Shown: positions 5,475-11,981 of the stretch, piece after piece
How the letters are laid out: every line of letters begins with the position of its first letter
How positions within the stretch are numbered: the stretch's first letter is position 1
DNA from: Butyrivibrio fibrisolvens
Lineage (GTDB): Bacteria > Bacillota > Clostridia > Lachnospirales > Lachnospiraceae
Direction of reading: 5' to 3'
DNA: 64,000 nt
Assembly: GCF_023206215.1 (NCBI RefSeq)
Contig: NZ_CP065800.1
Span: 2,914,001-2,978,000, forward strand
The notes under the pieces: model-generated
The model's database searches: none
Seen by the model: the letters and a program-made list of their open reading frames with translations, nothing else
Told to the model about the DNA's origin: nothing
Made by a program: the position numbers and the translations under genes

Positions 5475-5903
5475 TTAGTCAAGGCCACCGATCTTCTTTT
5501 TGGAAGCTTTAAGTCTTGAAAGTGCTCTGGCCATTGCAGCCTGAGACATCTTGTATTCTGCAATGGAATTCCTCTGGCGCATGCGCTCTTTGGCAATCTC
5601 CAGTGCTTCTTTGGCTCTGTTGACGTCGATGTCTTCCGGTCTTTCTATGGTATCTGCAAGTACGAGGCATCTGTTATTAGCAAACTGAACAGAGCCGTTA
5701 CCGCATACACCCACGACCACTTCACCGTTAGGTTTGGTGATCCTGATCTCTCCGGTATATATAGCGATCCACATCTCCTCATGATATGGCTGGATACCCA
5801 TCTCACCATCTACACAAGGAAGCGTGATACTACAAGCTCTTCCGTCAAAGAATATGCCGTTTATTGACATGACCTGCAGGCCAAATGTATGTACATCTGC
5901 CAT
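5475..5903 (-). CDS. atpC: F1 ATP synthase epsilon subunit
   Basis: This 142-residue protein has the usual epsilon layout: an N-terminal beta-sandwich (about 1-90, with ITLPCVDGEMGI and VCGNGSVQFANNRCLVLADT) and a C-terminal helical hairpin rich in Arg, Ala and Lys (about 95-142). Epsilon binds gamma in the central stalk and can inhibit ATP hydrolysis. The ATG at 5903 has AGGAG 6 nt upstream. It is the last gene of the atp operon, followed by a terminator. Confidence 0.93.
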   Translation of the reverse strand: MADVHTFGLQVMSINGIFFDGRACSITLPCVDGEMGIQPYHEEMWIAIYTGEIRITKPNGEVVVGVCGNGSVQFANNRCLVLADTIERPEDIDVNRAKEALEIAKERMRQRNSIAEYKMSQAAMARALSRLKASKKKIGGLD

Positions 5904-5987: not shown

Positions 5988-7388
<1,401 letters not shown>

Positions 7389-7397
7389 TTACTACTA

Positions 7398-8357
7398 CTA
7401 TTGTTGTTGTTTCAATGCTTGTAAATTGGCTTCACGCATTTTTGCCTGAAGCTCATGAGCTCTCTTTAAGGCTCTGGCACCGGCTGCGATCTCAGTTATC
7501 TCCTGAGTGATCCTTGCCTGCCTCTGCCTGTTATACTGGATCGATAGTTCATGTATCATCTGCTTAGCATTGTCATTTGCTGTATCCATGGCCATCATAC
7601 GGCTGTTCTGTACTGAACAGAACGCCTCAACCATAGCTCCATATATATAACCTGTTACCAGTGAAGGAACTATGTTATCAAGAACGGCTTCAGGACTTGG
7701 CAGCATCAAAAACTCTTCCAAAGTAGTTGTGATACCGGCCATCTTCAGCATTTCATCGTTGTTCTTGGGTCTTTCAAGGGGAAGAAGCTTTTCAAAGTGA
7801 GTCTCACACACAAGGCTGTTCTTCATAGCAGTATATATGATATTGACTTCATCAAGCTCTCCTGCAAGATAAGGCTCAAGCACCATTGAAGATATCCATC
7901 TTGCACGTGATAATGTAGGATTCTGAGCTGTATAATGAAACTCTTCATCGACAGGAATATTTTTTCTAAGAAAATACTGCCTTCCGATCTCTCCTATCAC
8001 GTACAGTTTCCAGTTATCTCCGTCTTGTCTAATATGCTCTTCAGCAAGTTTTAGGACGTTATGGTTATAAGCACCCGCAAGACCTTTATCGTCAGTGATA
8101 ACGATATAGCCTCTGATCACATCTTTAGGATCCTTATCTTCATGCTGATTGAGGAAAGGATCTTTGGAATCAACCGGAAGATGTCGCATAACTCTGTCCA
8201 GCATTCCTCTTGCAGCATAAAAGTAAGGCTCTGTCTCTTCAAGCATTTTTCTGGCTTTACGGAGCTTATTGGACGCAATCATATACATTGCGTTCGTTAT
8301 TTTCATGGTGTCATTGACACTTTTGATTCTGTCCTGTATTTCTTTTATATCAGCCAA
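7398..8357 (-). CDS. atpG: F1 ATP synthase gamma subunit
   Basis: This 319-residue central-stalk subunit is slightly longer than the usual 285-290. The N-terminal helix MADIKEIQDRIKSVNDTMKI and the C-terminal helix with NRQRQARITQEITEIAAGA are the conserved coiled-coil parts that rotate in the alpha3beta3 ring. The extra length is in the middle, for example the DSKDPFLNQHEDKDPKD insertion near residue 65. The start is TTG at 8355-8357 with GAGG 7 nt upstream. It follows atpA by 27 bp. Confidence 0.94.
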   Translation of the reverse strand: MADIKEIQDRIKSVNDTMKITNAMYMIASNKLRKARKMLEETEPYFYAARGMLDRVMRHLPVDSKDPFLNQHEDKDPKDVIRGYIVITDDKGLAGAYNHNVLKLAEEHIRQDGDNWKLYVIGEIGRQYFLRKNIPVDEEFHYTAQNPTLSRARWISSMVLEPYLAGELDEVNIIYTAMKNSLVCETHFEKLLPLERPKNNDEMLKMAGITTTLEEFLMLPSPEAVLDNIVPSLVTGYIYGAMVEAFCSVQNSRMMAMDTANDNAKQMIHELSIQYNRQRQARITQEITEIAAGARALKRAHELQAKMREANLQALKQQQ

Positions 8358-8384: not shown

Positions 8385-10178
8385 TTACTGTGCTAAATAC
8401 TTTTTGTTATTTTCAAAGAACTTATCAACAGCTTTTTCTATTTCTTTGCGGAGCTCATCAGGAAGCTCTTTGCCGTTGGAAAGCTCTGAAATAACATCAG
8501 TTTCATTCTGCTCAAACCACTCAAGGAGCTTGCCCTGAACCATCTTGACATCACAAGGCTCAACGCGGTCGAACTTGCCACTGTTAGCTGCAACAAGTGT
8601 GATAACCTGTTCGTACATAGCAAGTGGGTGACCAAGGGGCTGTTTCAAAAGCTCCATAAGCACTTTACCGTGATTAAGCTGTTTCTTGGTAGTCTCATCA
8701 AGATCCGATGAGAACTGTGTGAATACGGCCATCTCTCTGTACTGAGCAAGGTCGATACGGATAGATCCGGCTGCCTTCTTCATAGCTTTGGTCTGGGCTG
8801 CAGAACCTACACGTGATACAGAAAGACCTACGTTAACAGCGGGTCTCTGGCCTTCGAAGAACAGGTCGCTTTCAAGGAATATCTGACCATCAGTGATAGA
8901 GATAACATTGGTCGGGATATAAGCAGAAACGTCACCTGCCTGAGTTTCAATGATAGGAAGCGCTGTCATAGAACCGCCGCCGTTTTCAGGTGAGAGCTTA
9001 CTGGATCTTTCCAGAAGTCTTGAATGAAGATAGAATACATCTCCTGGATAAGCCTCACGTCCGGGGGATCTTTCAAGAAGAAGTGACAGTGCTCTGTAAG
9101 CAACAGCATGCTTGGACAGATCATCATACACAATAAGAACATCTCTTCCGGACTGCATGAAGTATTCACCGATAGCAGTACCTGCATAAGGCGCAATGTA
9201 CTGAAGAGGTGATGTGTCAGCAGCTGTAGATGATACTACTACTGTATACTCCATAGCTCCCGCCTGAGTAAGTGTATTTATTATGTGGGCAACAGTAGAT
9301 GCCTTCTGACCTATAGCTACATAGATACAGATTACATTTTTGCCCTTCTGGTTCATGATAGTATCTGTTGCAATAGAAGTCTTACCGGTCTGTCTGTCAC
9401 CGATGATAAGCTCACGCTGACCTCTACCTATCGGGAACATAGTATCTATAGAAAGGATACCTGTCTCCATAGGCTCATTAACAGACTGTCTGTCTATGAT
9501 TCCGGGAGCCGGACGCTCTACCGGATAATACTCATTAGTAGAGATAGGCGGCTTACCATCAAGCGGTTCGCCAAGAGCATTAACAACTCTTCCTATAAGT
9601 TCATCACCTACAGGAATTCCGGCTTCCTTGTATGTACGAATAACCTGACTTGACTGGGTTATATTTTCGTCAGATCCAAACAGGATACAACCAACGTGAT
9701 CACGTCTTATATCCTGTACCATTCCTTTCGTTCCGTCTTCAAACTGTACAATTTCACCGTAGAAAGCTCTGTCAATGCCAACTACCTGGGCAATACCATC
9801 GCCTACCCATGAAACTTTACCGACTTCTCTGCTCTCAATAGACAGATCAAAGAGATCGATATTGCCTCTAAGCATAGAAACAACACTGCTTGAAGGATTG
9901 GTATCGTTGTGTTTGATCTTCTTAAGCTTATTACGAAGCTGCTCTGCTCTACCCTTATCACTCCAGTCATATTCATAGTTGCCGCAGCGAATGATAAATC
10001 CGCCGCCTATGGAAGGATCGAGCTGAGTAGTAATTGATATATCATCAATACCAATCTTCTTAGAAAGTATTCTTTTAATATTTTCAACTTGTTCTTGTGT
10101 TGGTGGTGTTCCGGCATATCTTACGACTGCAGTTTTGTACTGTGAGCCGGATCCGCCAAATCCACTTAAATTACTCAT
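8385..10178 (-). CDS. atpA: ATP synthase alpha subunit with an N-terminal delta-subunit C-terminal domain (delta-alpha fusion)
   Basis: At 597 residues this is about 95 longer than a normal alpha subunit. From about residue 96 it is an ordinary alpha: N-terminal helix [16 protein letters not shown], Walker [30 protein letters not shown], and the arginine-finger region [13 protein letters not shown]. Residues about 14-90 instead match the C-terminal domain of the delta (OSCP) subunit: [20 protein letters not shown], then [19 protein letters not shown], then a terminal helix. No separate delta gene lies between atpF and atpA, and the delta N-terminal six-helix domain is not seen. The ATG at 10178 has AAGGAG 5 nt upstream. 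No internal start with a ribosome site was seen at the alpha boundary, so each of three alpha chains would carry the domain. Confidence 0.93.
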
Positions 10179-10264
10179 TTAGTCTCCTTAAGGTCCACTT
10201 TACAGGACTAAGAAAATACATCATCTTCCATGATGGTATAATTCTCAAAGCTCTTTGGGTCGTA

Positions 10265-10765
10265 TTACTTGTCATTGCCTTTATCAAATGCATTATCAAT
10301 AAATGCATCGTAAAGACTGCTGTCGCTCTCTGCTGTATGAGAATTAGCAGCAATTTTAGCAGCGGCATCGATTACGACGTCACTAAGCTCAGCCAAATAC
10401 TTAGCACGCTCACGTTCAGCGTCAGCTTTGGCATGTATTCTGGCTTCCTCGACAATTGTATCTGCCTCTTTCTGAGCATTGGTTATGATCTCATTGTACT
10501 GAGCGTAGCCCTTCTCACGAGCTTCACTCATAACCTTGTCTTTCTCTGCTTCCTGCTTAGCAAGCTTATCTTCATATTCTCTCTTAAGATCAGCTGCTTT
10601 GATCCTATCATCGGAAGCATCCTTGATCTGATTGTCTACATCTTTTTTTCTCGCCTCAAAGATCTTATCAACTTTGTTGAAAAGAAGTATACGGAAGGCA
10701 ACAACCAGTATAAGCAGATTAATTATGTTATAGATTACATTCGCGTTAATGTTTAATAGTTCCAT
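10265..10765 (-). CDS. atpF: Fo ATP synthase b subunit
   Basis: This 166-residue peripheral-stalk subunit has one N-terminal membrane helix (about 9-28) followed by a long charged helix (about 35-150), as is usual for b. Its C-terminus has the b-type end AAAKIAANSHTAES...YDAFID and shows no delta domain, so it is not a b-delta fusion like that of mycobacteria. AGGAA precedes the ATG. The 86-bp gap to atpA is too short for a delta gene. After the TAA stop the same frame stays open for 18 codons; this is probably chance. Confidence 0.93.
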   Translation of the reverse strand: MELLNINANVIYNIINLLILVVAFRILLFNKVDKIFEARKKDVDNQIKDASDDRIKAADLKREYEDKLAKQEAEKDKVMSEAREKGYAQYNEIITNAQKEADTIVEEARIHAKADAERERAKYLAELSDVVIDAAAKIAANSHTAESDSSLYDAFIDNAFDKGNDK

Positions 10766-10792: not shown

Positions 10793-11008
10793 TTAAGCAA
10801 AAATGATCAAAAGAGCTACGATCATACCGTAGATAGCTGTTGCCTCAGCAAGAGCGCCACCCAGGATAAGAAGTGTCATGATCTTACTGCTTGCCTCTGG
10901 CTGACGAGCTACTGCATCAACTGCTTTTGCTGTTGCTATACCGATACCAATACCTGCTCCTATTCCTGTGAATGCTGCGATTGCTGCTCCAAGTGCTGTT
11001 AAATCCAT
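10793..11008 (-). CDS. atpE: Fo ATP synthase c subunit
   Basis: This 71-residue proteolipid is two membrane helices joined by the polar loop ARQPEAS; the ion-binding Glu is residue 55 ([10 protein letters not shown]). Residues that make the Na+ site in Ilyobacter c (Gln32, Ser66) are Ile22 and Ala56 here, which favours H+ coupling; this is inference. A longer reading from 11077 is possible, but the ATG at 11008 has GGAG 8 nt upstream and matches the usual start [10 protein letters not shown], so it was chosen. It sits between atpB and atpF in standard order. Confidence 0.94.
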
Positions 11009-11149
11009 ACTAATTTCTCCTTTCGTCATAAGCCGCTTATATGTTACGACTATAGTGAACCCCACTTTTGGGGGCATTGCCCTTTATAATTCGGGCCAGG
11101 CTATAAAGCCTGCCGAGTAGTTTTCTGACTATATCAGATACTGACTCTT

Positions 11150-11878
11150 TTATTCTGTAGCCTCTTTGATATAAAGACTTGTCAGGAAGATAAATACATA
11201 CGCCTGTAGGAGTCCGTCAAAGAAGTCAAAATAAACTGATAAAACTGCAGGTGCGATAACAGGAACGACTTTCTTTAAAAGCTCCATGATGATGGTCGCA
11301 CCAAGTACATTACCAAATAGACGCATGCAAAGTGATAATGGTCTGATTCCGACTTCGAGAATGTTCATCGGGGTAATGATGGCAACCGGCTGAGCAAATG
11401 ATTTGAGCCAGCCTCCAAATTTCCTTTTCTTGATGCCGGCATATTCAACCATAGTTATACTTACAAGCGCCAGTGCAATGGTAACGTTAAGATCCATTGT
11501 AGGAGGCGTTGCCCCAAATACGCCGGACAGGTTACTTGCTCCTATAAGAACAAGTGTCACCACAAGAAAATCAGTATATTCAATTGCTGTATGTCCAAGG
11601 AATCCTCCAACAAGATTTCTAAGTCCTACAACAATACTTTCTGTAATGGCCTGTCTTTTTGAAATGTTATAAACTTTGAGATTGGCACTCAGAATGATGC
11701 ATATAAGTATTAGAACTGCCATTATGATCCACATGGTAACAGTACTGCTACTGATATTAAAGAATCCGTTACCAAAGGGAACCTCTATAACGGTCTTATC
11801 TTCACCAATGAGCTCTTCAATAAGCCCTCTGATGATCGCACCGATTCCGGAGCTTTTTGCTGCTTGTGTTTCTGTCAT
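11150..11878 (-). CDS. atpB: Fo ATP synthase a subunit
   Basis: This 242-residue membrane subunit forms the ion half-channels against the c ring. It has several hydrophobic helices and the essential-Arg motif SLCMRLFGNVLGA in the fourth or fifth helix. The ATG at 11878 (MTETQAAKSSGIG) has GGAGG about 5 nt upstream; the in-frame ATG at 11944 lacks a good site and would add 22 atypical residues. It is the first clear gene of the atp operon; no atpI was found upstream. Confidence 0.93.
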   Translation of the reverse strand: MTETQAAKSSGIGAIIRGLIEELIGEDKTVIEVPFGNGFFNISSSTVTMWIIMAVLILICIILSANLKVYNISKRQAITESIVVGLRNLVGGFLGHTAIEYTDFLVVTLVLIGASNLSGVFGATPPTMDLNVTIALALVSITMVEYAGIKKRKFGGWLKSFAQPVAIITPMNILEVGIRPLSLCMRLFGNVLGATIIMELLKKVVPVIAPAVLSVYFDFFDGLLQAYVFIFLTSLYIKEATE

Positions 11879-11981
11879 ATCTGCCTCCGTGTATTTAACC
11901 AATTTAATGATTTGTATTACAACATATGACCTATCATAATACAATTGGTATATTGGGTAATTTAATTATAAAAACTGATAA

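Follow-up and report, generated by a model that had tools for sequence, protein, structure and literature searches.

An F-type ATP synthase of Butyrivibrio fibrisolvens whose alpha subunit begins with a delta C-terminal domain, and the case for more than one stator

The atp operon studied here lies within a 64,000-nucleotide stretch of the Butyrivibrio fibrisolvens genome (NCBI RefSeq assembly GCF_023206215.1, contig NZ_CP065800.1, positions 2,914,001 to 2,978,000 of the forward strand; hereafter the window), and the N-terminus of its alpha subunit, AtpA, is a genuine delta/OSCP C-terminal domain (CTD) fused to alpha. The only part of delta encoded by this operon is that CTD; the delta N-terminal domain (NTD) is absent there. 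We read the product, with a probability of roughly 0.6 and by analogy with an engineered synthase of the same design, as an H+-type F1Fo ATP synthase that would bind several stators. The kind of fusion is already known: Acidaminococcus and two UniProt entries were described as having it in 2025, according to the available part of the source (PMC12229609). What is new is a series among relatives, best read from their sequences as leading from a separate delta through a full delta-alpha fusion to an alpha that bears the CTD only, with repeated loss of the NTD. Set against the available part of PMC12229609, the additions are the full-fusion intermediates, the presence of the fused enzyme alongside a canonical Na+-like one, and genomes whose only F1 seems to be the fused one. 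No report of a Butyrivibrio delta-alpha fusion was found in the open-licence PMC literature, where PMC12229609 makes a general remark.

The delta domain of AtpA and its genomic setting

A first-pass annotation, made from the letters of the window, had proposed that AtpA begins with a delta CTD, and profile, alignment and fold comparisons all bear this out. The Pfam OSCP model aligns its positions 111-172 with residues 24-85 of AtpA (E 7.8e-9; 36.3 bits, cut-off 22.3), hhalign of the N-terminal domain against delta gives 98.2%, and delta chains are the top PDB fold matches of the modelled domain. Its predicted structure runs E-H-E-E-E-H, with block predicted local distance difference test (pLDDT) values of 71-90 in the first 70 residues and values below 50 at residues 91-120, and the NCBIfam atpA model TIGR00962 covers residues 97-590 at 737 bits (cut-off 484).

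The domain is under purifying selection: in Butyrivibrio pairs (20, of which five repeat one strain, leaving 15 distinct and 14 computable) the ratio of nonsynonymous to synonymous substitution rates (dN/dS) is 0-0.36, with some dS values above 1 and near saturation, so that the CTD evolves faster than the catalytic core yet is constrained. The N-terminal extension is, judging from its coding signals, translated. A start near residue 95, which the annotation had named as a way in which its reading could fail, is unsupported because the ribosome site AAGGAG (10189-10184) stands before the upstream ATG and because selection acts on the domain. The same two observations speak against an enzyme of variable occupancy, in which some alphas would lose the CTD by proteolysis or internal initiation and each F1 would keep one to three sites; we regard this as quite improbable.

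All of the other subunits, which the annotation had called present, were found (a, c, b, gamma, beta and epsilon), and a single operon in the order a-c-b-alpha-gamma-beta-epsilon accounts for alpha, beta, gamma, epsilon, a, b and c of F1Fo (Table 1). It holds no separate delta gene. AtpF is of normal size, at 166 aa, and ends at 10265, and the gap of 86 bp between atpF and atpA is, as first described, without a delta gene and is too small for a delta NTD. The CTD on alpha and the absence of the NTD from the operon support the further proposal that the peripheral stalk is attached differently in this enzyme. The likely consequence, more than one stator, goes beyond what the annotation proposed. 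The window gamma (7398-8357) ends in a lysine-rich tail.

Table 1. Features of the window atp operon (window coordinates)
Feature	Position	Strand	Basis
atpC, epsilon, with C-terminal helical domain	5475..5903	-	Open reading frame (ORF), profile
atpD, beta	5988..7376	-	ORF, profile
atpG, gamma; C-terminal tail longer than that of the canonical operon	7398..8357	-	Profile
atpA with N-terminal delta CTD, 597 aa from ATG	8385..10178	-	ORF; NCBIfam atpA TIGR00962
Linker and alpha N-terminal helix, residues 91-120	9819..9908	-	Junction span; pLDDT <50 in model
Delta/OSCP C-terminal domain, residues 14-90 (Pfam match 24-85)	9909..10139	-	Profile, model, fold comparison
Shine-Dalgarno-like AAGGAG, 5 bases upstream of ATG at 10178	10184..10189	-	
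atpF, subunit b, 166 aa, normal length	10265..10765	-	PF00430, E 2e-14
atpE, subunit c; site LAEATAIY, Ile at Na+-ligand position, H+-like	10793..11077	-	Profile, motif
atpB, subunit a	11150..11944	-	ORF, profile search

Across the whole genome (G000; 4.45 Mb, completeness 99.94%), OSCP searches at E up to 10 return two matches only, the N-terminus of AtpA and one complete delta of 180 aa (E 6.5e-43) in a second, canonical operon at about 931-937 kb of contig C1. The earlier statement that there is no delta gene is thus right for the window operon and wrong for the genome. A complete atpH elsewhere, which had been named as counter-evidence, does literally exist; the reading nevertheless stands, given that this atpH is part of the second, canonical operon and that 20 of 63 fused genomes show no other delta at E 0.001 (see below). 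The canonical alpha is 58% identical to the core of the fused AtpA, and the canonical F1 lies far from the fused F1 on the tree.

The two enzymes also differ in their c subunits. Na+ ligands of the c-ring are Q or E at position 32 and S or T after the essential Glu. Subunit c of the window has I at the Na+-ligand position and EAT at the site, which puts Ile and Ala at the ligand places; in the canonical c the corresponding residues are E and, at the site, ETT. By these motif rules the fused enzyme is probably H+-type and the canonical enzyme of the same genome Na+-type. The genome has one RnfC match and one Complex1_49kDa match, which suggests an Ech-like enzyme. The RnfC match (C1:3457642-3458916) is reported with one internal TAG, and the match to the Ech-like subunit (C2:103422-104141) is on the smaller second contig, both ATP synthase operons being on the other. 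The Complex1_49kDa family, which would include Ech, matches in 25 of 53 fused genomes and not in the other 28 (PF00346 alone), and we therefore do not take coupling of the fusion to an Ech-type hydrogenase as a general rule. These matches bear on a reading that keeps a multi-stator build and makes the enzyme mainly an ATP-driven proton pump rather than a synthase. The relatives are fermenters, and with no match in 28 of 53 a source of H+ is not always evident; the window genome has both matches, though, and in Pseudobutyrivibrio ruminis ATP is formed by two ATPases, one using Na+ and one H+, according to the available part of a review (PMC11187502). We consider a predominant pump highly improbable.

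Distribution and history of the fusion

Among the matches listed from a scan of 392 genomes of the order for an uninterrupted frame from delta CTD into alpha, such fusions occur in at least 63, comprising 19 full delta-alpha and 44 CTD-only cases (OSCP, E 0.001). One, G351, has a fused frame without an OSCP match and is counted from the frame scan alone. Comparison of related operons, which the annotation had put forward, finds the extended alpha in all 17 sampled genomes of the window's genus. OSCP searches at E 0.001 on the 63 fused genomes and four stop-separated cases (the family also matched nine of 14 control genomes) gave no other delta in 20 of the 63 (18 CTD-only, two full), which are mostly fragmented drafts, 16 of them at least 90% complete. 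Each of the 20 has one alpha match above 600 bits, with all others at or below 141 bits, pointing to a single F1 alpha gene; because alpha is single, every F1 in these organisms would carry three CTDs, provided that the assemblies are right and the domain is not removed after translation.

The window genome, together with 14 of the 16 further genomes sampled from the genus, does encode a separate full delta, and a mixed enzyme might borrow this subunit or its NTD from the canonical operon and form an ordinary capped crown. We find this improbable. The 18 CTD-only genomes without another OSCP match at E 0.001 include two of the same genus (G166 and G327, both 99% complete drafts), a canonical delta comes with a CTD of its own, and the canonical F1 sits on a far branch of the tree.

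Among named genomes, the best 80 of 112 loci comprise, by ORF length, 47 full fusions, 32 CTD-only and one at a contig edge; four of the 80, first filed as separate, were reassigned to CTD-only on ORFs of 608-619 aa holding the YDWS motif. These best 80 come from Butyrivibrio, Pseudobutyrivibrio, Eubacterium uniforme, Lachnospiraceae GAM79 and many metagenome bins. Because cultured strains carry CTD-only fusions (e.g., Butyrivibrio proteoclasticus P6B7) or full ones (e.g., Pseudobutyrivibrio ruminis DSM 9787, Lachnospiraceae GAM79), the question of stator number is directly testable. Hackmann and Firkins (2015), in the available part of their text, give 62 butyrivibrio genomes with all F0F1 subunits. 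Further fusions occur among the matches listed in a survey of the phylum (398 genomes), seven of which (L221-L228 without the near-copy L225) have DGS, DAS or DGT replacing DWS, while L220 keeps DWS.

Several variants were seen in passing. L152, from an uncultured Clostridia bin, has an ORF from 5382 (+) of 785 aa that by eye holds two tandem delta NTDs, one CTD and alpha in one frame, and Eubacterium uniforme ATCC 35992 (L161, L098) adds an E/K-rich alpha C-terminal extension of roughly 85 residues to a full delta-alpha fusion. A CTD-only subgroup (L076-L078, L082, L085-L087, L106, L108, L220) has a divergent Fo, with a signal-peptide-like N-terminal stretch on c, the site F(I/V)ETxxIY, and a subunit a that matches weakly or goes undetected.

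Measured from stop to stop, the alpha frames of 101 operons fall into three size classes: 501-536 aa (56, separate delta), 580-659 aa (34, CTD-only) and 673-758 aa (11, full). On an alpha-beta tree of 51 rows, two of them long (L243, L076), CTD-only and full fusions interleave with strong support, and there are mixed sister pairs (L079/L090, L105/L097, L075/L096, L073/L099). Placing the CTD-only rows in a single clade is rejected by the approximately unbiased test (p-AU 1.9e-59), and the CTD-only state requires eight changes, both on the best tree and over the 5-95% range of the bootstrap, a count that is blind to gain versus loss, so that to speak of repeated loss presumes that a lost NTD is never regained. 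Holding all fused rows of the main clade together is not rejected (p-AU 0.089), and one fusion event or several may lie behind them. In the simplest history, whole delta was joined to alpha once or a few times and the NTD was then lost repeatedly. Judged by size, every one of the 56 operons with a separate delta encodes a full-length one (54 at 167-240 aa, plus L239 and L235), these having been recovered by searches that need a recognizable delta or a close alpha. The NTD of full fusions is under selection (median dN 0.038 and dS 0.515 over 33 pairs; dN/dS about 0.07 from the medians). Because a second CTD-only group (L221-L224, L227, L228), with L226, falls among canonical enzymes in a quick 97-row tree, the design of delta CTD on alpha probably arose more than once. 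In L105 (G319, a 68% complete bin), about 30 in-frame residues before the CTD-alpha resemble a remnant of the delta NTD; in L101 (G370) and L102 (G176), delta and alpha share a frame with a single stop between them, possibly a state of fission or one preceding fusion.

How many stators the enzyme may bind

In ordinary F-type enzymes the center of the crown is occupied by the delta NTD, which is argued to limit the enzyme to one stalk. Every alpha made from the window gene carries the b-binding delta CTD, in effect a docking site for b, so that F1 would offer three such sites around an alpha3beta3 crown whose central hollow would be left empty. The complex could then bind two or even three b2-a stators, and as each a subunit would pass protons past the same c-ring, H+/ATP would be about Nc x Na / 3 (Nc and Na being the numbers of c and a subunits), allowing ATP to be made, or protons to be pumped, at lower proton-motive force.

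We favor several stators because of the likeness to the engineered enzyme, the genomes in which no alternative delta or alpha was found, and the repeated absence of the NTD in a fused background only. In the available part of their article, Ueno et al. (2025) argue that F-type enzymes are kept to one stalk by the delta NTD, which sits on the pseudo-threefold axis, and describe a Bacillus PS3 FoF1 in which this domain was deleted and the CTD fused to alpha; the product had as many as three stalks, with up to three a subunits, and an H+/ATP of 5.8 versus 3.0 (PMC12229609). The best PDB sequence match of a profile built across the natural domain and junction is this engineered chain (9jc1, E 2.8e-13). 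The junction, counted between the D of YD(W/G)S and the G of the VG motif in alpha (YDWS to EVGKV), is 49 residues long in the window and 48 in 9jc1. For CTD-only rows, 22 values were obtained, four of them false motif hits (72; L083, L084, L088, L089), three rows gave no value, and L080 had no motif; the 18 usable rows of the clade span 45-51 (median 46.5), and 11 full fusions have a median of 49.

Several observations weigh against this reading or are neutral. On cryo-EM grids, engineered particles with 0, 1, 2 and 3 stalks made up 15, 51, 26 and 8%, a mean of 1.26 stalks, in the available part of that article (PMC12229609). In a crude anti-Shine-Dalgarno test, with starts chosen automatically and rows without a placeable start dropped, fused operons do not show stronger starts for a and b; in CTD-only operons both, and gamma too, are weaker than their canonical counterparts (mean energies for a -10.4 vs -13.6, b -10.0 vs -12.7, gamma -7.8 vs -11.4 kcal/mol). 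The NTD is retained under selection in Pseudobutyrivibrio and others, so that fusion alone need not mean multiple stalks, and the canonical delta in the window genome could interfere.

A rival reading is an enzyme with a single stalk and built-in docking, in which the fusion tightens stator attachment and dispenses with a separate subunit; space, or how much a and b is available, would allow only one b2-a to bind, leaving two CTDs unoccupied. The 51% of engineered particles with one stalk, the a and b start sites that are no stronger in fused operons, and the selected NTD of full fusions all point this way. However, in the engineered enzyme both the subunit stoichiometry and the H+/ATP ratio indicate about two stators in the same source (PMC12229609), and a single stalk gives no reason for the lack of the NTD in so many separate fused lineages; we judge this alternative rather unlikely. 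A gamma C-terminal tail of at least 20 residues occurs in 35 of 40 fused and six of 56 separate operons, and with only four independent contrasts (p 0.25) we do not claim it as a co-adaptation to a vacated crown.

Rotary ATPases have been classed by their number of stalks (F one, A two, V three; available part of PMC6131620), and the half-channel model has H+ per turn set by how many c subunits there are (available part of PMC12229609). A natural enzyme with several stators, if real, would break both the classification and the c-number rule, and might account for how fermenters make ATP when the proton-motive force is low. More tentatively, and at a little short of an even chance, F-type synthases with two or three complete stators may already exist in nature: in a lineage of Lachnospirales, delta would first have become part of alpha and the crown-capping NTD would then have been dropped repeatedly, making stator number and H+/ATP (up to about Nc, three times Nc/3) evolvable, and "one stalk = F-type" would be no rule.

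Comparison with known systems

The engineered deltaDN-alpha FoF1 (9jc1) has, like the window enzyme, the CTD on the N-terminus of alpha, no NTD, the same order of parts and a junction of nearly equal length; it differs in being man-made, with a Gly-Ser linker and the epsilon C-terminal domain removed, and in that its stalk number was measured, whereas the window enzyme is known from its genes. The mycobacterial b-delta fusion (7jg5_d) was matched in both the PDB sequence and fold comparisons and likewise has its delta CTD borne by another subunit, but fused to b rather than alpha. There the NTD is kept, at one copy per complex.

The N-ATPase, an alternate F1F0, has the gene order atpDCQRBEFAG. 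The window order and its b of 166 aa are unlike that order and the longer N-ATPase b, and the window alpha scores 602.7 bits against TIGR03324, below the cut-off of 750.5, where the ordinary TIGR00962 passes, so that N-ATPase identity was rejected. N-ATPases further differ in carrying a delta-like part on the longer b and in belonging to another alpha family; their NCBIfam b model (TIGR03321) weakly matches the canonical delta CTD (E 1.3e-5). The likeness to the window operon is that neither has a delta gene, by the available part of PMC5706428.

Natural fusions without the delta NTD are described in Acidaminococcus fermentans and UniProt entries G4Q3K6 and A0A1I2C5T3, for which the authors predict multiple stalks, again in the available part of the source (PMC12229609); the window AtpA is likened to this type from that description. 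Also comparable are the full fusions of Pseudobutyrivibrio, Eubacterium uniforme and others, which share with the window enzyme the operon lineage, the CTD and the YDWS motif, and differ in having kept the delta NTD, at about 673 aa.
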